A stretch of 64,000 bases of DNA from the NCBI RefSeq assembly GCF_000331535.1, contig NZ_AMZN01000015.1:124001-188000 (forward strand). Reading direction: 5' to 3'. The notes under the pieces are model-generated. The model worked only from the letters and a program-made list of their open reading frames with translations, did no database searches and was not told where the DNA came from. The stretch comes from Fulvivirga imtechensis AK7 (lineage in GTDB: Bacteria; Bacteroidota; Bacteroidia; Cytophagales; Cyclobacteriaceae). The position numbers were made by a program, and so were the translations under genes. Positions 13,475-24,204 of the stretch are shown here, in pieces. Numbering within the stretch: position 1 is the first letter of the stretch; the number at the start of each line of letters is the position of its first letter.

Positions 13475-13631
13475 TGCAATGTAATGACATATGATCTTGT
13501 CCACTCAGCTCTCAGGCTTAAACCATACACCTAGCTCTTCGCCCTCTGCACTTAGCTCTTTGCCCCTCTATGGGTAACAAAAATTAATAATCTTGATATA
13601 GGGTTGATCGCGGGCTGTTGCCAGTGGTTAT

Positions 13632-13663
13632 GCGGAAGCCGAAAAGCAGTAACAGAGTAGGCA
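13632..13663 (+). promoter_or_regulatory. Conserved element upstream of the first RiPP-like gene
   Basis: A 32-base stretch beginning GCGGAAGCCGAAAAGCA and ending ACAGAGTAGGCA lies with its first base exactly 52 bases before the start codon at 13684. It recurs at 18433-18462, again with its first base exactly 52 bases before the second precursor gene, with only a small indel. The position suggests a 5'-untranslated control element or regulator site; its function is unknown. Confidence 0.6.
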
Positions 13664-13683: not shown

Positions 13684-13881
13684 ATGAAAAAGTTAAATTT
13701 AAACCAGTTGGAAGTAAGAAGTTTCATCACTGCCATGAAGGATGAAAATGGTATTCAAACCGTTAAAGGAGGTATTTCCGGGGGTGCATGCCAGCCTGTA
13801 GAGGCTTATCCGGTTGACATAGAGTGGGCATTGGGCACTCGTGGCGGCTGCACGCAGTGGGAAAACATGTGTAACGGTTAA
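13684..13881 (+). CDS. RiPP-like precursor peptide 1 (pinensin-type lanthipeptide leader)
   Basis: A 65-residue peptide. The leader starts MKKLNLNQLEVRSFITA and ends at Gly-Gly (29-30). The predicted core begins ISGGAC and ends TRGGCTQWENMCNG. The core has exactly three Ser/Thr (32, 52, 57) and three Cys (36, 56, 63), each Cys placed 4, 4 and 6 residues after a Ser/Thr, as expected for lanthionine rings. The leader resembles those of pinensin-family class I lanthipeptides of Bacteroidota, from memory and not from a search. A close paralogue lies at 18485. No LanB/LanC-type enzyme is in the window, so modification is an inference; disulfide-bonded or signalling peptides are alternatives. Confidence 0.72.
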   Translation: MKKLNLNQLEVRSFITAMKDENGIQTVKGGISGGACQPVEAYPVDIEWALGTRGGCTQWENMCNG

Positions 13882-13885
13882 TTCC

Positions 13886-13917
13886 TTTTCCCGGCCTGCT
13901 GGATCAGGCCGGGAAAA
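13886..13917 (+). terminator. Hairpin after RiPP-like gene 1
   Basis: A perfect 13-bp stem (TTTTCCCGGCCTG / CAGGCCGGGAAAA) with a 6-base loop begins 5 bases after the stop codon. No clear T-run follows, so it could act as a terminator or protect the 3' end of a small abundant transcript. The second precursor gene has a hairpin at the same relative place. Confidence 0.6.
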
Positions 13918-14015
13918 AATATTATCCGATTTATCTTTAGAAAGCCATCGCACCACTCATCCCATTGCCTGTATTCAAAAGTTCGACAAATGGTTATCTT
14001 TATTCTATTAGTTGA

Positions 14016-14573
14016 ATGTACTCCCAGATGACAGATCTTACTAAAATAACTATTCGTCAGGTAGGCCGCGGCGATCTTCCGGCACTGCAGCAAATCGGCA
14101 AAACGACTTTTATCGAAGCCTTCGGTGCTGCCAATTCTCCTGCTAATATGGAAAAATACCTGAGTGAAAAATTCAGCATGGAAGCAATAGCCATGGAAGT
14201 AGGGGATCCTGAGTCACTATTTTTCTTTGCGGAATCGGCTGGAGAAGCTTTAGGTTACTTAAAAGTGAATTTTGGTGCGGCCCAAACCGAACCTCTACCC
14301 GGTAAGTCACTGGAAATTGAACGGATATATGTTTTGGCAGATTATTACGGGCAGGGAGTGGGAAAACTCTTATTCAACAAAGCACTTGATATTGCCGGAG
14401 AGAAGGCTATGGATGTAATATGGCTGGGTGTATGGGAAGAAAACCCCCGCGCGATCAGGTTTTACGAGAAAAATGGCTTCAAGGAGTTTGGCAGGCATAA
14501 GTTTATGTTGGGTGACGATGAGCAGATTGATATTATGATGAGGCTTGAGATATCCATGATACCGAACCGTTAG
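14016..14573 (+). CDS. GNAT-family N-acetyltransferase
   Basis: A 185-residue GCN5-related acetyltransferase. The acetyl-CoA site is visible as ERIYVLADYYGQGVGKLLFNKAL (motif A), followed by VIWLGVWEENPRAIRFYEKNGFKEFGRHKF (motif B). Family members of this shape include SpeG/PaiA-like polyamine acetyltransferases; WLGVWEENPRAIRFYEK resembles PaiA. The substrate is not determined. ATG 14016 or ATG 14028 could be the start. It lies between the first precursor peptide and the two-component pair. A role in peptide acetylation or self-protection is possible but unsupported. Confidence 0.85.
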   Translation: MYSQMTDLTKITIRQVGRGDLPALQQIGKTTFIEAFGAANSPANMEKYLSEKFSMEAIAMEVGDPESLFFFAESAGEALGYLKVNFGAAQTEPLPGKSLEIERIYVLADYYGQGVGKLLFNKALDIAGEKAMDVIWLGVWEENPRAIRFYEKNGFKEFGRHKFMLGDDEQIDIMMRLEISMIPNR

Positions 14574-14593
14574 ATTTACTATATTGCCAGGAA

Positions 14594-17518
14594 ATGATAT
14601 ATCTGGCTTTAAGATCACTCATACCTATCCTGTTATTCCCGGGTTTCATCGCGGGCGCTTTTGCGCAACAGCATGCCTTCAGGCAATTTAGTGTAGATGA
14701 AGGTTTGCCTAGTTCCGAGGTTTACAATATCTATCAATCCGATGAAGGTTACATTTACTTTACAACAGACAGAGGTATAAGCAGGTATGACGGATATAAG
14801 TTTCGGAATTACTCACTTCGGGATGGACTGCCGGGTAACACAGTTTTCGGTGGTTATAAACACAGCAACCAGACCATTTATTTTTATACTTATGAAGGTG
14901 ATATCTTCTATCCGTTCGATGATCAGATAAAGGTGATCAGTGTAGGTGAGCTGAAGGAGCAGATGTCATTCCGAAGGGTTATTCAGAATTTAATGATAGA
15001 CGAACACGGAAGCGTGTGGATTGTGATAACAGGACACGAGAAAGGTTTTTTTGAGATAGATACCCTTGGTCACTTCAAAAAGGATATTCTTCTTCATCCT
15101 TCCTCATCTATTCAAATGAAGTATTCCGGTGATGGAAAATATCTCTGTGCCTACTATGAAGACGCGGATAGTACTATCCTGCACTTGTCTGATGGCCGTG
15201 CGCTTGATATCACCAGTATTATTAAAAAAGAAAATATAGATACTGCGGATATTCTTAGTGCTATAGAGAAAGGTCAGGCGTTGTACCTCGTGTTTAAATT
15301 CGGCTTAATGCACTTAAACACCATCAATCACGACTATATCTACTTGCCATACCAGGAAGAACTGGTTAAAAACATGTATATCGATACGGATAATAGTTTA
15401 TGGATAGGACATGCGCAGAGAGGTATACTTCGGTTTCCTGATGCCGATCTGAGCAGGTCGCCAGAAAGGCTGTTGGACGGTGAAACGGTAACAGCTTTTT
15501 ATGAAGATACCGAAGGTGGGAAATGGTTTTCTACATTGGACAATGGCGTTTACTACATGCCCTGGAATGACCTTTACTATTACAATGATATTGATGGAAT
15601 GTGCAAAACAATTGCTGTTAATAATAATAATGAGATCTGGGCCGGATTTACCAAGGGGACGATAATCAATTATCGCGAGGGAAATTCTCCAAATATTTAC
15701 AGGCTTCCCTTTAGTGACAAAAGGCTGGGCGCCATCCAATCATTTTGTGAAAATAAAGAACGGCTCTATGCAGTATGCTCTAACCTTGTTTATGACATCA
15801 CTGATGGAGTTATACAGGGCTCTGAATTTAGTGATGCCTACGTTCGCAAGCTGGTGAACGATGGTGATAATATGTGGGGACTGGGTAATGGTTTCTACCT
15901 CTTCAAAGATGATAGCATCAGCTACTCTTCCGAGCTGGAAAATTCTTTTGGAGAGTGGACCACCACTTTGACAAGGGTATCCGACTCGTTGTGTATTGTC
16001 GGCTCTTTTTCGGGGCTTTATGCATTTGATGGCTCAGGCGTCAGGCCTTACCACCGGGAGAAAAGCCCGCTGTTTTCCCAAAGGATTAGCGACATAGAAT
16101 TTGCAGGAAGGAACAGGATATTCTCTACCATTGGCAACGGGCTGCTGATTGAAAATGATTCTGCTATAATACACGTGCAAAAAGACAGTGGAGGAGTGCT
16201 CAGCAATGTATGTAATGCTGTATTTGTTGAAAACGACTCCACGTTTTGGGTGGCTACCAATGAAGGTATCAATACCATATTTATCAGGAACGATCCGGAC
16301 GGTACATTTAGTTATGAAGTAAAAGGTGTCACCAGGGAAGATGGACTGAGGTCAAATGAGGTATACGATCTTCTGGTGAAAGATGACCAGGTTTGGGCAG
16401 GCACCAACCTTGGTCTGGTGCGGTTTGGAAAGGACATGTACAACTACGGGAAATACACCTTGCCTGTTATCTTAAATTATTTTAAAGCTGGTGATCAGGA
16501 AAAGGACATCTCACACCTGTTAGAGCTATCAAGCGATCATAACAGTATTGAACTTAGCTATACCGCACTGTTTTTTAAGAATCCGGATAAGATCATGTAT
16601 CGCTACCGGCTGCAACCGGACCGGGAATGGTCCTATACCAAAAACACACGGATAAATCTACTCAACCTGGCTGAAAGAAGATATGATCTACAACTTGAGG
16701 CTTCTATTGACAATGTTCATTGGTTTGGTTTGGACAACAATATCTCCTTTATCATCTATCCGCCATTATGGCGCTCTACCGGTTTTCAAATTGGCTATTT
16801 TATTGTTGGAGGTGTACTGCTTTGGCTGGTGTTTTATTACCAGTTTTCGATATTTAAGAAACGAGCCGTACTGAAGCGGAAGGCCTTTGAAGCAGAGCAA
16901 AAGGCATTAAGGGCTCAGATCAACCCCCACTTTATATTTAATTCCCTGAATTCGATCAACAGCTTTATATTGAATAACGATAAATTGATTGCCAGCCAAT
17001 ACCTGGCTAAGTTTGCCGGGCTAATGAGACAGATGCTGGATAATTCAGCAGAGGTTACCATAGCACTTAGAAAAGAGATCAATGCCCTGGCATCATATAT
17101 GGCTATGGAGGCATTACGGGTTGAAAACAAATTTGATTTTTCCATTACCCATGATCCGGGGCTGGATATTGATAAATGCTTTATTTCACCCATGCTGATA
17201 CAACCATTTGTGGAAAATGCGATCTGGCATGGAGTGATGCCTCTGAATAGTCGAAAGGGGTTTATCACTGTGCATTTTACACAGTTGTCTGCCAAAAGGA
17301 TATTGTGTGTGGTGGACGACAATGGGGTTGGGCGTGATGGGCAGGATAGTAGTGGAAAGCCCAGGCACAGGTCTCATGGAATATCGTTGATCAGGAACAG
17401 GCTGGCGATCATCAGTGAAATTCGTAAAGCAGACTACCATATAGAAGCTGTCGATAAGAAGTGCAAGGACGGGAGTGCGGCAGGAACAAAAATCAAATTG
17501 GTATTACCGGCTAATTAG
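14594..17518 (+). CDS. LytS-type histidine kinase with periplasmic beta-propeller sensor
   Basis: A 974-residue sensor kinase. A signal peptide (residues 1-24) precedes a long two-component-regulator propeller region (about 30-640, with repeats such as GLPSSEVYNIYQSDEGYIYFT). A Y_Y_Y domain follows (about 654-707), then one membrane span (733-752). The cytoplasmic His_kinase domain has ALRAQINPHFIFNSLNSINS with the phosphorylated His at 779, and an ATPase domain with PFVENAIWHG and VDDNGVGRD. It should phosphorylate the LytTR regulator starting 51 bases downstream. In Bacteroidota such kinases usually sense envelope or extracellular cues. It sits between the two small precursor genes. Confidence 0.92.
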   Translation: MIYLALRSLIPILLFPGFIAGAFAQQHAFRQFSVDEGLPSSEVYNIYQSDEGYIYFTTDRGISRYDGYKFRNYSLRDGLPGNTVFGGYKHSNQTIYFYTYEGDIFYPFDDQIKVISVGELKEQMSFRRVIQNLMIDEHGSVWIVITGHEKGFFEIDTLGHFKKDILLHPSSSIQMKYSGDGKYLCAYYEDADSTILHLSDGRALDITSIIKKENIDTADILSAIEKGQALYLVFKFGLMHLNTINHDYIYLPYQEELVKNMYIDTDNSLWIGHAQRGILRFPDADLSRSPERLLDGETVTAFYEDTEGGKWFSTLDNGVYYMPWNDLYYYNDIDGMCKTIAVNNNNEIWAGFTKGTIINYREGNSPNIYRLPFSDKRLGAIQSFCENKERLYAVCSNLVYDITDGVIQGSEFSDAYVRKLVNDGDNMWGLGNGFYLFKDDSISYSSELENSFGEWTTTLTRVSDSLCIVGSFSGLYAFDGSGVRPYHREKSPLFSQRISDIEFAGRNRIFSTIGNGLLIENDSAIIHVQKDSGGVLSNVCNAVFVENDSTFWVATNEGINTIFIRNDPDGTFSYEVKGVTREDGLRSNEVYDLLVKDDQVWAGTNLGLVRFGKDMYNYGKYTLPVILNYFKAGDQEKDISHLLELSSDHNSIELSYTALFFKNPDKIMYRYRLQPDREWSYTKNTRINLLNLAERRYDLQLEASIDNVHWFGLDNNISFIIYPPLWRSTGFQIGYFIVGGVLLWLVFYYQFSIFKKRAVLKRKAFEAEQKALRAQINPHFIFNSLNSINSFILNNDKLIASQYLAKFAGLMRQMLDNSAEVTIALRKEINALASYMAMEALRVENKFDFSITHDPGLDIDKCFISPMLIQPFVENAIWHGVMPLNSRKGFITVHFTQLSAKRILCVVDDNGVGRDGQDSSGKPRHRSHGISLIRNRLAIISEIRKADYHIEAVDKKCKDGSAAGTKIKLVLPAN

Positions 17519-17569
17519 GGTGTGAAAGCCTCTAAGTGGCTAAAGAAGAACGTCAATGTTTAAACTACT

Positions 17570-18283
17570 ATGATCAGAGTTGTACTTATTGATGATGAAA
17601 ATACGGCTATCAGAGCTTTACAAACGCTGTTGCACGAATATTTCGATTACATCGAAGTGGTGGGTACTGCCTCGAGCCTCGATGAAGGGAAAATAGTTGT
17701 GCTCAGGCAAAAGCCCGACCTCGTATTTTTAGATATTGAACTCAGGGATGGTACGGGGTTCGATCTTCTGGAGGCTATTCCTGTCAACTTCAAGGTAGTT
17801 TTTGTTACCGCATACTCCGAATATGCGCTGAAGGCCATCAAAAAACGAGCATTTGACTACCTGTTAAAACCCGTGGATGTTGATGAGTTGGCAAGAACAC
17901 TTGACGATATCAAAAGGGAGCTTCAAACTCGTGAAGCCCCAAGGTATCCCGCCAGGCTCTCGATACCCTGTAAGAATGGCAGTCTGTACATACAGGCCGA
18001 TCAGATCCTGAAGCTGGACGCCAGCGGTAGCTACAGCAAAATATTTCTTGAAAACGGAGATTCGCACATGGCCTCTCATAACCTGAGCTACTTTGAAAAA
18101 CTGCTGGATCCCGGAAGATTTTTCAGATGCCATCATTCACACATTGTTAACCTTACGAAGGTGAAGAGGGTACTTTTTGAAATGGGAATGATCGTGGTGC
18201 TGACCGATGGGAGCTGTGTCGATGTTTCAAAACGAAAAAAGACCGAATTTAATCAAAGAATGGCCGATATACCTAACCGTTAG
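17570..18283 (+). CDS. LytTR-family response regulator
   Basis: A 237-residue response regulator with an N-terminal receiver domain (acidic pocket LIDDE, phospho-acceptor Asp55 in LVFLDIELRDG, Lys in YLLKPVD) and a C-terminal LytTR DNA-binding domain (IPCKNGSLYIQADQILKLDASGSYSKIFLENG, then FRCHHSHIVNLTKVKRV). It is the expected partner of the kinase just upstream. LytTR regulators often control peptides, bacteriocins or surface functions, so the neighbouring precursor genes are candidate targets. This is inferred from position only. Confidence 0.93.
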   Translation: MIRVVLIDDENTAIRALQTLLHEYFDYIEVVGTASSLDEGKIVVLRQKPDLVFLDIELRDGTGFDLLEAIPVNFKVVFVTAYSEYALKAIKKRAFDYLLKPVDVDELARTLDDIKRELQTREAPRYPARLSIPCKNGSLYIQADQILKLDASGSYSKIFLENGDSHMASHNLSYFEKLLDPGRFFRCHHSHIVNLTKVKRVLFEMGMIVVLTDGSCVDVSKRKKTEFNQRMADIPNR

Positions 18284-18432
18284 TGTACCGGTTGTAAAAA
18301 TTAGTTGGCAAATTAGTGATCCCCAGCCTAGTCCACCTGTGAAGTAATAACGCCCGCTTATAAAGAATATCCATGCACGTCTGAATTTGAAGTTTGCTGC
18401 AGGTTAAAAAGACATTATGTTGCAGCTTTAAC

Positions 18433-18462
18433 GCGGAAGCCGAAAAGCAAACAGAGTAGGCA
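18433..18462 (+). promoter_or_regulatory. Conserved element upstream of the second RiPP-like gene
   Basis: A 30-base stretch nearly identical to 13632-13663, two bases shorter in the middle. Its first base lies exactly 52 bases before the start codon at 18485, matching the spacing at the first gene. Sequence farther upstream is not alike, so the element itself seems to be under selection or recently duplicated. Confidence 0.6.
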
Positions 18463-18484
18463 GCTTATTAAAAACTTAGACGAA

Positions 18485-18694
18485 ATGAAGAAGTTTAACC
18501 TAAACCAATTAAAAGTACAGAGCTTTGTTACTTCTGTTAACGGAGGAAAGATCGAAACCATAAAAGGCGGAATTTCAGGTGGAGCATGCGTTCCTGCAGA
18601 AAAATATCCAAGAGATATTGAATGGGACCTTGGAACACGTGGCGGATGTACTAACTGGGAAAATATGTGTAACGCAACTAACTTCAATTGTTAA
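18485..18694 (+). CDS. RiPP-like precursor peptide 2 (pinensin-type lanthipeptide leader)
   Basis: A 69-residue paralogue of the gene at 13684. The leader starts MKKFNLNQLKVQSFVTS and ends at Gly-Gly (28-29). The core begins ISGGACVP, contains YPRDIEWDLGTRGGCT and ends NATNFNC. The core holds four Ser/Thr (31, 51, 56, 65) and four Cys (35, 55, 62, 69). Compared with peptide 1 the C-terminus is longer and adds one Thr together with one Cys, with the same 4-residue spacing, so the Ser/Thr-Cys parity is kept. This supports ring formation. No maturation enzyme or dedicated exporter is encoded nearby. Confidence 0.72.
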   Translation: MKKFNLNQLKVQSFVTSVNGGKIETIKGGISGGACVPAEKYPRDIEWDLGTRGGCTNWENMCNATNFNC

Positions 18695-20548: not shown

Positions 20549-22054
20549 ATGTTCTATTTTTTTTCTGATTTAATTGCGCGACAAGCAGGTCGTGCAGGTT
20601 TGTTATTAATTGTTTTAGCAGTGTCTTTTGGTTGTGCGGATGAGGAGGACCTTCTGGTTTCGGAAGAATCCCTACCCCGGGAGCAGGTTTCAGAAGAGGA
20701 TCAAGCTTCTGATTCACATGGAAGTGATGAATTAACAGGTTGTACAGATGGTCTGGCGCTTAACCGAGTTGCAGGCGCTTCGTTTGATGATAATTCATGC
20801 CAGTATACACCTAAAGCCTGTGCTGATTGCGACTACATAGTAGAGCCGGATAACTGGATAGCTGACAATGAAGTATTAAAACTGCCTCCCGGATCCGTTA
20901 TAGGTATAAAAGGAGCCAACAGAGGACCTGTAACCATAAGAAATTTTCATGGCACGGCAGATCAACCTTATATCATTATCAATTGTGATGGAAAAGTCAG
21001 CGTAAGTGGTGATGTGCCGGGAATTAAACTTCATAAGAGCAGCTTTATTCGCCTTACAGGCACAGGATCTGCCGATGACTATGGCATCAAGGTCCATAAC
21101 ACCAAGCCTTTTGGTGTGGTAGCAGAGCTGGGCACAACGGATTTTGAAATTGACCATATTGAGATCACAGCCACCAAAGGCCCGGGAATATCGGCCAGAA
21201 CACGTCCCGCTTGTGATGGAAGTACAAACAGAGGTACTTTTGTACAGCGGAATACAGTCATTCACCACAACTACATCCACGATACAGGTGGAGAAGGGAT
21301 GTATGTGGGTGGCTCAAATTGGCATAAAAGCTTTCCGCCACTGAATCAATGTCCCGATCTCGTATTGTATGAGCCTGAACTGGAAGGGGTATTTATCTAT
21401 AACAACCTGGTTGAAAATACCGGCCAGGATGGTATTCAGGTAGGGGGAGCCGTTGGAGGAACGGAAATATACAATAATGAGATCCGAAATTATGGATTAA
21501 AAGGTATTGAAATCCACCAGGCGGGTATTCAGATCAATCCGGGAACAACCGGAAAGATATACAGTAACCTAATAAAAGGAGGTACGGGAAAAGGTATTTT
21601 CCTAAACGGGTTTGACAACAGTGTTTATAATAATCTGATTGTCGATTGCAATAAGGATGCTATACATATCGGAGACAGGGACCCGCTTCCTAATCAAAGC
21701 TATCGCATTGTCAATAATACCATGAGTAATATTAGCGGCTATGGAGTTATTACTAACTCATCGAAAAGTGTTGACAACGTTTATCACAACAACGTCCTCG
21801 TCAATGTAGGTGGTGAGATATTTAAATTTCATAAGGACATGGATTTCGATGTTGATAATAATTACGAGACTTCTAATATTAATGAACTATCATTTAAAGA
21901 TCCCGCCAGCCTGGATTACTCGTTATTGGACGATAGTCCTTTGATAGATACGGGTACGGATAATGATATGGAAATTATAGGTGATTATATGCTCAATACC
22001 AGGGAAGTAGGAGCACGGATAGATATCGGAGCCTATGAGTATCAGGGTCAATAA
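20549..22054 (+). CDS. Right-handed parallel beta-helix lipoprotein 1
   Basis: A 501-residue protein with a hydrophobic N-terminus and a lipobox (VSFGC, Cys at about residue 29), so it is probably lipid-anchored. After an acidic linker comes a Cys-rich motif CTDGLALN...DDNSCQY, a relaxed form of the CTDPxAxNYxxxAxxDDGSC motif common in Bacteroidota surface proteins. The main part (about 95-480) is a parallel beta-helix with many 'N.IY.N.I...G.GI' turns, as in pectate-lyase-like folds. The ligand or substrate, perhaps a polysaccharide, is unknown. A close paralogue follows at 22768. Confidence 0.8.
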   Translation: MFYFFSDLIARQAGRAGLLLIVLAVSFGCADEEDLLVSEESLPREQVSEEDQASDSHGSDELTGCTDGLALNRVAGASFDDNSCQYTPKACADCDYIVEPDNWIADNEVLKLPPGSVIGIKGANRGPVTIRNFHGTADQPYIIINCDGKVSVSGDVPGIKLHKSSFIRLTGTGSADDYGIKVHNTKPFGVVAELGTTDFEIDHIEITATKGPGISARTRPACDGSTNRGTFVQRNTVIHHNYIHDTGGEGMYVGGSNWHKSFPPLNQCPDLVLYEPELEGVFIYNNLVENTGQDGIQVGGAVGGTEIYNNEIRNYGLKGIEIHQAGIQINPGTTGKIYSNLIKGGTGKGIFLNGFDNSVYNNLIVDCNKDAIHIGDRDPLPNQSYRIVNNTMSNISGYGVITNSSKSVDNVYHNNVLVNVGGEIFKFHKDMDFDVDNNYETSNINELSFKDPASLDYSLLDDSPLIDTGTDNDMEIIGDYMLNTREVGARIDIGAYEYQGQ

Positions 22055-22767: not shown

Positions 22768-24204
22768 ATGAAACGTGTTATCCACCTTTTTTTCCTCGCC
22801 CCGCTCGTGTTCGCCTGCGGTTCTGATGATTCAGTAGATGTCACCAGATTTGAATTATTACCAAAAGAAAGTACTCTGGCCAGTTGTACTGATCCCTTGG
22901 CTACAAACCTGTCCACCGGTTTTATTTTTGATGATAATTCCTGCCAATACACACCGGTTAAGTGCTCAGGGTGCGACCATGTGATAGCAACTGATGATCA
23001 CATTATTGATAACGACAAGCTAAAGCTCCCTATAGGCGCTACCATAGGAATAAAGCCCGGAAAGAGAGGAGCTCTTACCTTTAGAAACTTTCATGGAACG
23101 GCAGCCAAGCCATACATCATAGTAAATTGTGATGGTAAAGTAGATATTGCTGCAGAGGTGCCTGGGATAAAGCTGCATGCCAGCAGCCATATCAGGCTGA
23201 CCGGCACAGGTTCTGTGGATGACTATGGCATCAAGATCTCAGATGCCAAACCTTTTGGAGTGGTTGCGGAACTGAGCACTACAGATTTTGAAATAGATCA
23301 CCTGGAGATTACCGGCACTCAGGGTCCGGGTGTTTCGGCCAGAACAAGACCTGTGTGTGACGGAAGCTCAAACAGAGGCACCTTTACACAGCGAAATACC
23401 ATCCTTCACCACAACTATATCCATGATACAGGAGGTGAAGGATTTTACATAGGAGGCTCTCACTGGCATACCAGCTTCCCTGAAAATAATGACTGTCCTT
23501 CGCTGACATTACTTGAGCCTGAACTGGAGGGAGTAAAAATATATAATAATATCGTTGAAAATACCGGTCAGGATGGCATTCAGGTAGGTGGCGCTATTAT
23601 TGGTTGCGAGATATACAATAATGTAGTGATCAATTATGGATTGAAGAATATTGAGGTACACCAGGCGGGTATACAGATCAACCCGGGCACAACGGGTGAC
23701 ATCTATAGTAACCTGATCAAAGGAGGGACCGGTAGTGGTATATTTCTCAATGGATTTGATAATCGGGTTTTTAGTAATTTGATCATTGACTGTAACAAAA
23801 ATGCAATTCTGGCGGGCGACCGCGAGCCACCGGCAGGTAAGAGCTATAAAATTGTGAATAATACCATGGTCAACGTCAATGGTTATGCCATATATATGAA
23901 TTCCAAGTTAAGTGTGAATAACATTTTTTATAATAATCTGATCATCAATCAGGTAGGAGACCTCAATAATAAACTGGGTGCGGATATAGATATAGATATT
24001 GCAGATAACATTGAGTTCGAGAAGCTGGACGAAGCGTTGTTGGTATCTCCGGATAGGTATGATTTCACTCCTTTGGATGACAGCCCGTTAATAGATGCAG
24101 GGCGTAATATAGATAACATTGGTATTAGTATAGATTACCTGTTGAATAGCAGGCACCGCGGTGCCGCCGTTGACGTAGGGGCTTTTGAATACCAGAAAAA
24201 TTAG
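22768..24204 (+). CDS. Right-handed parallel beta-helix lipoprotein 2
   Basis: A 478-residue paralogue of the gene at 20549, alike over nearly the whole length. It has its own signal peptide and lipobox (APLVFAC, Cys17), but the acidic linker is shorter. The motif CTDPLATN...DDNSCQY is closer to the usual form. The helix domain keeps GPGVSARTRPVCDGSSNRGTF, HHNYIHDTGGEGFYIGGSHW and VHQAGIQINPGTTG nearly unchanged, which marks the probable functional face. The two genes arose by tandem duplication. A strong terminator hairpin follows at 24254-24286. Confidence 0.8.
   Translation: MKRVIHLFFLAPLVFACGSDDSVDVTRFELLPKESTLASCTDPLATNLSTGFIFDDNSCQYTPVKCSGCDHVIATDDHIIDNDKLKLPIGATIGIKPGKRGALTFRNFHGTAAKPYIIVNCDGKVDIAAEVPGIKLHASSHIRLTGTGSVDDYGIKISDAKPFGVVAELSTTDFEIDHLEITGTQGPGVSARTRPVCDGSSNRGTFTQRNTILHHNYIHDTGGEGFYIGGSHWHTSFPENNDCPSLTLLEPELEGVKIYNNIVENTGQDGIQVGGAIIGCEIYNNVVINYGLKNIEVHQAGIQINPGTTGDIYSNLIKGGTGSGIFLNGFDNRVFSNLIIDCNKNAILAGDREPPAGKSYKIVNNTMVNVNGYAIYMNSKLSVNNIFYNNLIINQVGDLNNKLGADIDIDIADNIEFEKLDEALLVSPDRYDFTPLDDSPLIDAGRNIDNIGISIDYLLNSRHRGAAVDVGAFEYQKN

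Follow-up and report, generated by a model that had tools for sequence, protein, structure and literature searches.

Predicted pinensin-family lanthipeptide precursors behind DUF805b RNAs and away from their putative enzymes in Fulvivirga imtechensis

Two precursor genes preceded by DUF805b RNAs

This analysis concerns a 64,000-nucleotide stretch of the Fulvivirga imtechensis AK7 genome (NZ_AMZN01000015.1, positions 124,001 to 188,000), from now on referred to as the window, and specifically two short plus-strand genes that encode predicted lanthipeptide precursors and are each preceded by a copy of the DUF805b RNA. The genome comprises 6.7 Mb on 225 contigs, with the window located on contig C15. 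Precursor 1 (13684..13881) and precursor 2 (18485..18694) encode paralogous peptides of 65 and 69 amino acids (aa), respectively, that share 70% identity. Their leaders are closed by Lys-Gly-Gly after residue 30 in precursor 1 and residue 29 in precursor 2, followed by the cores ISGGACQPVEAYPVDIEWALGTRGGCTQWENMCNG and ISGGACVPAEKYPRDIEWDLGTRGGCTNWENMCNATNFNC. An earlier interpretation made from the letters of this DNA, here called the sequence-only reading, had described both open reading frames (ORFs) with their matching Gly-Gly leaders and likened the leader to the pinensin type. Both ORFs were recovered as described, and this assignment is borne out by NF038180 (leader_pinensin), a curated NCBIfam model of the pinensin-family leader, which both peptides pass well above the cut-off of 24 bits (44.9 bits for precursor 1 and 50.3 bits for precursor 2). 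The same reading had suggested a search against TIGR04149, a model for radical SAM-modified ribosomally synthesized and post-translationally modified peptides (RiPPs), which led nowhere: neither peptide is listed at E values up to 10, in a search where HMMER filters discard most weak matches. A Pfam scan of both peptides returned nothing above cut-off.

Ahead of precursor 1, a DUF805b RNA (Rfam RF02914) occupies 13629..13663 on the plus strand (cmscan, 45.2 bits, E 1e-10, gathering score 35.6). A second copy ahead of precursor 2 is found at 18430..18462 on the same strand (35.9 bits, E 1.5e-7). The RNAs end 20 and 22 nucleotides (nt) before the respective start codons. This element had been absent from the sequence-only reading.

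A strict search of the order with precursor 2 (E <= 1e-10) returned its own genome only, that is, 1 of 148 genomes, and among named genomes one relative locus was found, in Fulvivirga marina 29W222. Precursor homologues are present in three of the 14 other genus genomes searched (G149, G153 and G161). These orthologous precursors keep all Ser/Thr and Cys residues in the available sequence, one of them ending at a contig end. Both window peptides are new members of the pinensin leader family.

Ser/Thr residues on the N-terminal side of Cys

Core 1 contains Ser/Thr at positions 2, 22 and 27 and an odd number of Cys, at positions 6, 26 and 33, corresponding to gaps of 4, 4 and 6 residues. Core 2 repeats this pattern (Ser2-Cys6, Thr22-Cys26 and Thr27-Cys33) and adds Thr36 and Cys40, again with a gap of 4. 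The core map thereby reproduces the Ser/Thr-Cys counts of 3/3 and 4/4 and the spacing given in the sequence-only reading, which had described exact parity as what lanthionine rings would lead one to expect. These counts are correct and the lanthipeptide interpretation is supported; exact parity is not the rule across the precursors of this genome. In the window peptides alone, parity is weak evidence: each Cys has its own preceding Ser/Thr in 25% (core 1) and 20% (core 2) of composition shuffles, and the two cores count approximately once because they are paralogous.

A broader comparison used 28 cores from the 31 leaders of this genome that score above the NF038180 cut-off, with core starts chosen by us at Gly-Gly; two of 30 loci without Gly-Gly at the expected place were left out, as was leader C34:264. 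Ser/Thr residues equal or outnumber Cys in all 28 cores, one of which is Cys-free, compared with a pooled-shuffle mean of 22.4 (fraction of shuffles reaching the observed value, 0.0002). Removal of three close paralogues, including window peptide 2, and of the Cys-free core left 24 non-redundant cores. Here, a distinct Ser/Thr can be assigned to 110 of 113 Cys at a distance of 2-10 residues on the N-terminal side, while shuffles yield 70.7 (standard deviation 4.5) and none of 5000 reaches the observed count. The mirror test, with Ser/Thr sought on the C-terminal side of Cys, gives 74 versus 70.6 in shuffles (1319/5000). Each Cys having its own Ser/Thr on the N-terminal side is a general tendency that becomes highly significant only over the genome-wide precursor set. 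In class I lanthipeptides, the dehydrated residue to which a Cys is added usually lies N-terminal to it, and the directional Ser/Thr excess is therefore the best sequence evidence for lanthionine rings here. In precursor numbering, the predicted rings are S32-C36, T52-C56 and T57-C63 in precursor 1 and S31-C35, T51-C55, T56-C62 and T65-C69 in precursor 2.

Class I enzymes on other contigs

Genome-wide searches place matches to LanC (PF05147) and to the C-terminal part of LanB (PF14028) on contigs C81 and C9 only, PF14028 being found at two loci; PF04738 was scanned in chosen proteins. The window on C15 does not contain any modifying enzyme of these families, in agreement with the sequence-only reading, which had made its lanthipeptide suggestion depend on the presence of LanB/LanC-type genes elsewhere in the genome. 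Such genes are present, so this potential refutation falls away. Contig C81 encodes a split LanB, consisting of an N-terminal part of 1013 aa (PF04738, 8e-37) and a separate elimination protein of 337 aa (PF14028, 2.5e-43), together with a LanC-like cyclase of 651 aa (PF05147, 8e-58) and a C39 peptidase-ABC transporter (PF03412, 3.5e-34). A HlyD-like protein at this locus gives a weak match below cut-off. The C81 contig also carries five leader_pinensin matches. Two TPR sensor kinases and a LuxR-type response regulator are located among the precursors of the C81 locus (L023:4284-11407).

A second LanB/LanC set is found on C9, comprising a LanC of 416 aa, a long LanB (PF04738/PF14028), its own class I-like precursor and a grasp-with-spasm maturase. 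The maturase gene, at C9:55355-56558, matches TIGR04192 with 338 bits, and its candidate precursor gene follows a DUF805b RNA. Modification of the window lanthipeptides by this C9 system is conceivable, given that C9 encodes both PF05147 and PF04738/PF14028 proteins and a precursor with a DUF805b RNA, but we consider it improbable for three reasons. The leader of the C9 precursor differs, reaching 12.1 bits against the NF038180 cut-off of 24, with its best models NF038158 and NF038153 both below cut-off. The C-terminal domain of the C9 LanB is split over two overlapping frames (C9:66800-67605), reflecting a frameshift or an assembly error. Finally, G149, G153 and G161, which encode the same precursor, each have a single PF14028 gene with a score similar to that of the C81 gene.

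Neither the C81 nor the C9 LanC-like protein has another Pfam match above cut-off, in scans that did not search for LanM itself. Enzymes and leaders together point to a class I LanB/LanC system with pinensin leaders and not to a class II LanM system with Nif11 leaders.

A precursor set scattered over the genome

The sequence-only reading had called the window genes orphans. Locally this holds. Genome-wide it does not: NF038180 lists 34 matches in this genome, 31 of them above cut-off and distributed over 19 contigs, so that the window genes belong to a large set of which 26 of 31 leaders lie off the C81 enzyme contig. Many precursors thus accompany few enzyme loci, with PF05147 at two places and PF14028 at two loci for 31 leaders. 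In a sample of 162 genomes of the order, the leader was found in nine, the eight besides F. imtechensis having 1-3 copies each. Across 15 genus genomes, it is also present in nine, with 31, 22, 19 and 14 copies in four genomes and a single copy in each of five. PF14028 occurs in the identical nine of 15 genomes (Fisher p 2e-4, a value that takes genomes as independent and leaves shared descent uncorrected), and the three other many-copy genomes encode one PF14028 gene apiece.

The scattering is not an assembly artefact because G161, a single 6.98-Mb contig, holds all of its 19 leaders dispersed between 0.12 and 6.2 Mb. Three of these are located within 9 kb of the sole PF14028 gene at 4.28 Mb, and the orthologue of the window precursors lies at 3.07 Mb, 1.2 Mb away from this gene.

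Structure of the DUF805b element

To describe the RNA, 159 sites were collected (156 unique), namely all 53 of the genus and 106 among the matches listed for the order. The four pairs of the first stem, the one drawn in Rfam, are partly a selection effect. A second stem was identified between model positions 10-12 and 32-34, paired in 458 of 468 cells across the 156 sites, with both-sided changes at all three pairs; none of 1000 shuffles matches the observed pairing at any of them, kinship of the sites being uncorrected. The element further contains conserved single-stranded GAAAA and GAGUA motifs. Because the two stems interleave, we propose that DUF805b folds into a 35-nt H-type pseudoknot. 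In its printed form, the Rfam model shows the first stem only; the second one, like the association with RiPP precursor genes, comes from the present analysis. A pseudoknot may already be depicted in the original description of DUF805b. An ORF follows 157 of the sites, with a median of 22 nt between RNA and start codon and with 139 sites at 13-31 nt.

A small conserved element at a fixed distance from a gene could instead be a DNA operator, since covarying inverted arms can in principle be bound as DNA. Moreover, only 19 of 159 copies have a TAnnTTTG-like box in the 40 nt ahead of them (3.6 in shuffles), so that transcription of the element is supported for a minority of sites. Against this, the two interleaved helices and the single-stranded GAAAA and GAGUA motifs are consistent with an H-type pseudoknot, and 5' leader elements usually lie at this distance from the start codon, which together make an operator rather unlikely. 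A GTTGCAA(C) word was seen just 5' of some RNA copies (e.g. L041 and L170-L172) and may be a regulator site; TTGCAA, GTTGCA or TGCAAC is found within 40 nt of 16 of the 159 sites.

Genes behind the DUF805b RNA

DUF805b is widespread, being detected in 82 of 148 order genomes at E <= 1e-5 and in 64 of 247 genomes of a phylum sample at E <= 1e-6. F. imtechensis has 12 strong copies, 10 of them above the gathering score. Eleven directly precede a short ORF of 36-85 aa. Five of these ORFs are leader_pinensin genes above cut-off, and the others comprise the class I-like precursor on C9, a candidate grasp-with-spasm precursor, so assigned because it precedes the maturase gene, a bacteriocin-like Gly-Gly peptide on C47 (by eye) and three further short peptides. 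The adjacency of five of 12 copies to one of 31 leaders has a p-value of 3e-9 assuming 5500 genes, which is overstated because the two window genes are paralogues. Over the genus, 19 of 53 RNA sites lie directly before a leader_pinensin gene, including those in three of the five one-copy genomes.

The twelfth copy precedes a 999-aa subtilase (PF00082) with a type IX secretion tail, encoded at C2:85906-88905 (L097:107-3106). Stem 2 of the RNA at this gene shows a compensatory change, and the subtilase gene is followed by a pinensin-type precursor gene (L097:3380-3595). Proteins resembling the C2 subtilase, as judged from the N-terminus alone, follow the RNA in G148, G149, G150, G153 and G161. 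In G153 and G161, a leader match is found about 3.3 kb downstream in the same orientation; this is not so for G149 and G150, and G148 lacks any leader match. The C2 subtilase could possibly serve as leader protease or be an exported effector.

The genes behind the RNA order-wide encode Gly-Gly peptides, lipoproteins, other secreted proteins, unknowns and one protein that resembles DUF805 by eye. By simple rules of our own, short Gly-Gly peptides follow the RNA at 28 of 53 genus sites and at 17 of 106 order sites among the matches listed. A hydrophobic N-terminus, again by our own rule, was assigned to 41 of 56 RNA-linked ORFs of at least 150 aa compared with 60 of 155 controls (p 1e-5), an imperfect match in that the controls were drawn from four genus genomes but the RNA-linked ORFs from across the order. 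Curated models lend little support to a description of the RNA-linked peptides as RiPPs: one of seven scanned in this genome passed a curated cut-off (leader_pinensin), as did one of 10 scanned from genus and order (lant_leader_L1a), with two more just short of bacteriocin models. A regulon restricted to RiPPs was considered and rejected, many of the order genes encoding signal-peptide proteins or others. Taken together, the genes it precedes suggest that DUF805b is a riboregulator of exported peptides and proteins.

Proposed maturation and regulation

We consider it likely that the window genes encode pinensin-family class I lanthipeptide precursors that are modified in trans by the C81 enzymes and are under DUF805b control. 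The leader would be recognized by the split dehydratase on C81, formed by the 1013-aa LanB N-terminal part and the 337-aa elimination protein, which would dehydrate core Ser/Thr residues. The 651-aa LanC-like cyclase would then couple every Cys with a dehydrated residue that lies N-terminal to it, so that product 1 would contain three rings and product 2 would contain four, after which the C39 peptidase-ABC transporter may cleave behind Gly-Gly and export the product. This enzyme set would act on about 31 precursors in all, whose leaders are similar and whose cores mostly differ. The DUF805b pseudoknot, which ends about 20 nt ahead of the start codon, would control the mRNA of both precursors, probably at translation initiation, and would likewise control unrelated RiPP precursors or bacteriocin-like ones that the cell also encodes.

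Several observations weigh against this proposal. Because the enzymes are encoded on another contig, they are matched to the window leaders by leader similarity and by co-occurrence, with shared descent uncorrected, and C9 provides a second LanB/LanC set. Exact Ser/Thr-Cys parity is found in only seven of 28 cores (pooled-shuffle mean 2.9, reached in a fraction of 0.017), which, together with the shuffle results for the window peptides, led us to discard parity as the key signature. Ser/Thr is also not the only class raised before Cys. Among six control residue classes, Val/Ile/Leu/Met is clearly up (80 versus 65.6, 2/5000) and Asn/Gln (64/5000) and Asp/Glu (97/5000) are slightly up, all far weaker than the Ser/Thr excess; the aliphatic excess implies that core composition near Cys is non-random in further ways. 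With regard to the RNA, it lies directly ahead of only five of 31 leaders in this genome and is thus not a general switch of the leader set. G150 and G155 have a single leader gene each without the RNA there. Order-wide, the RNA also precedes many non-RiPP genes, and the outermost pair of the first stem is formed in only 110 of 156 sites.

Relation to known lanthipeptide systems

Pinensins, class I lanthipeptides of Chitinophaga pinensis, share the NF038180 leader family with the window peptides, and their separate glutamylation and elimination LanB proteins and LanC correspond to the arrangement on C81. The use of a split LanB by pinensin, as well as class I Bacteroidetes leaders ending in Gly-Gly that occur with a C39 protease, are described in PMC7268733. 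The likeness lies in leader and enzymes. Unlike in the pinensin system, the window precursors lie far from any enzyme gene and the genome contains about 31 leaders. Clustering of precursor and enzyme genes is usual, though in our view not essential for the family, and C15 does not carry any PF05147 or PF14028 match. PedA15 of Pedobacter lusitanus is likewise a class I Bacteroidota lanthipeptide, whose leader was removed with the Gly-Gly protease LahT150 according to PMC12328550.

With respect to genome organization, the closest parallel is found in cyanobacterial class II prochlorosins, which also combine many diverse cores with similar leaders and are in many cases encoded far from the enzyme. 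PMC7268733 describes many prochlorosin precursors as distant from the enzyme, PMC12328550 gives their number as 29, and PMC10783134 describes a ProcM-type class II enzyme with Nif11-family leaders. The system discussed here differs in its class I split LanB and LanC and its pinensin leaders. A large survey, as described in PMC7268733, was limited to seven genes on either side of a LanC-domain gene and thereby missed dispersed prochlorosin precursors. Enzyme-centered mining of this kind finds precursors only near enzymes, and could pass over the leaders off C81.

A literature search on the DUF805 RNA found no publication among the entries listed, and one on dispersed Bacteroidota precursors and Fulvivirga lanthipeptides, covering titles and abstract starts, found none on this system. 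As far as these searches show, a class I arrangement with many dispersed precursors, linked to DUF805b, represents a new variant. The analysis ties an RNA motif named after DUF805 proteins to peptide precursor genes and adds a second stem to it, giving the search for its signal a concrete footing. Should a single split LanB system process all precursors, it would be the class I counterpart of the promiscuous ProcM and useful for peptide libraries. More speculatively, and with somewhat less than even confidence, we hypothesize that four genomes of the genus Fulvivirga maintain a natural class I combinatorial library, in which one promiscuous split-LanB/LanC set acts on 14-31 dispersed precursors; some of these, along with unrelated RiPPs, bacteriocin-like peptides and a secreted subtilase, would be switched by the DUF805b pseudoknot. 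If true, DUF805b would define a Bacteroidota-wide exported-peptide regulon.

Gene neighborhood in the window

Between the two precursors, the plus strand encodes a Reg_prop/His_kinase sensor (14594..17518; PF06580 and PF07494) and a LytTR response regulator (17570..18283; PF00072 and PF04397), which are possible regulators of the precursor genes. A role as dedicated parts of the system is not supported, as they have no match in the retrieved orthologous loci of the three genomes. Their position bears on a further alternative, namely that the window peptides are bacteriocins or signal peptides of the double-glycine type that stay unmodified, contain disulfides, leave the cell through the C39 transporter and are possibly sensed by this kinase and regulator. 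The Gly-Gly leaders and the bacteriocin-like gene on C47 with the same RNA would also fit such peptides. We nevertheless regard this as very unlikely: the set-wide Ser/Thr-before-Cys pattern is one-directional, core 1 has an odd number of Cys, the leaders match a curated lanthipeptide model and co-occur with the LanB elimination domain, and the kinase and regulator have no match in the retrieved orthologous loci.

A GNAT-family acetyltransferase is encoded at 14016..14573 (+; PF00583, E 1.6e-18), 3' of precursor 1. In three other genomes, a GNAT gene with 52.6-61.6% identity to that of the window is located directly upstream of the orthologous precursor, so the position differs, being 5' of the precursor in the relatives and 3' of precursor 1 in the window. 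A role in acylation or self-protection would be a guess. Further downstream, the window contains two adjoining genes at 20549-22054 and 22768-24204 (501 and 478 aa). By eye their translations resemble each other, and the pair apparently arose by tandem duplication.

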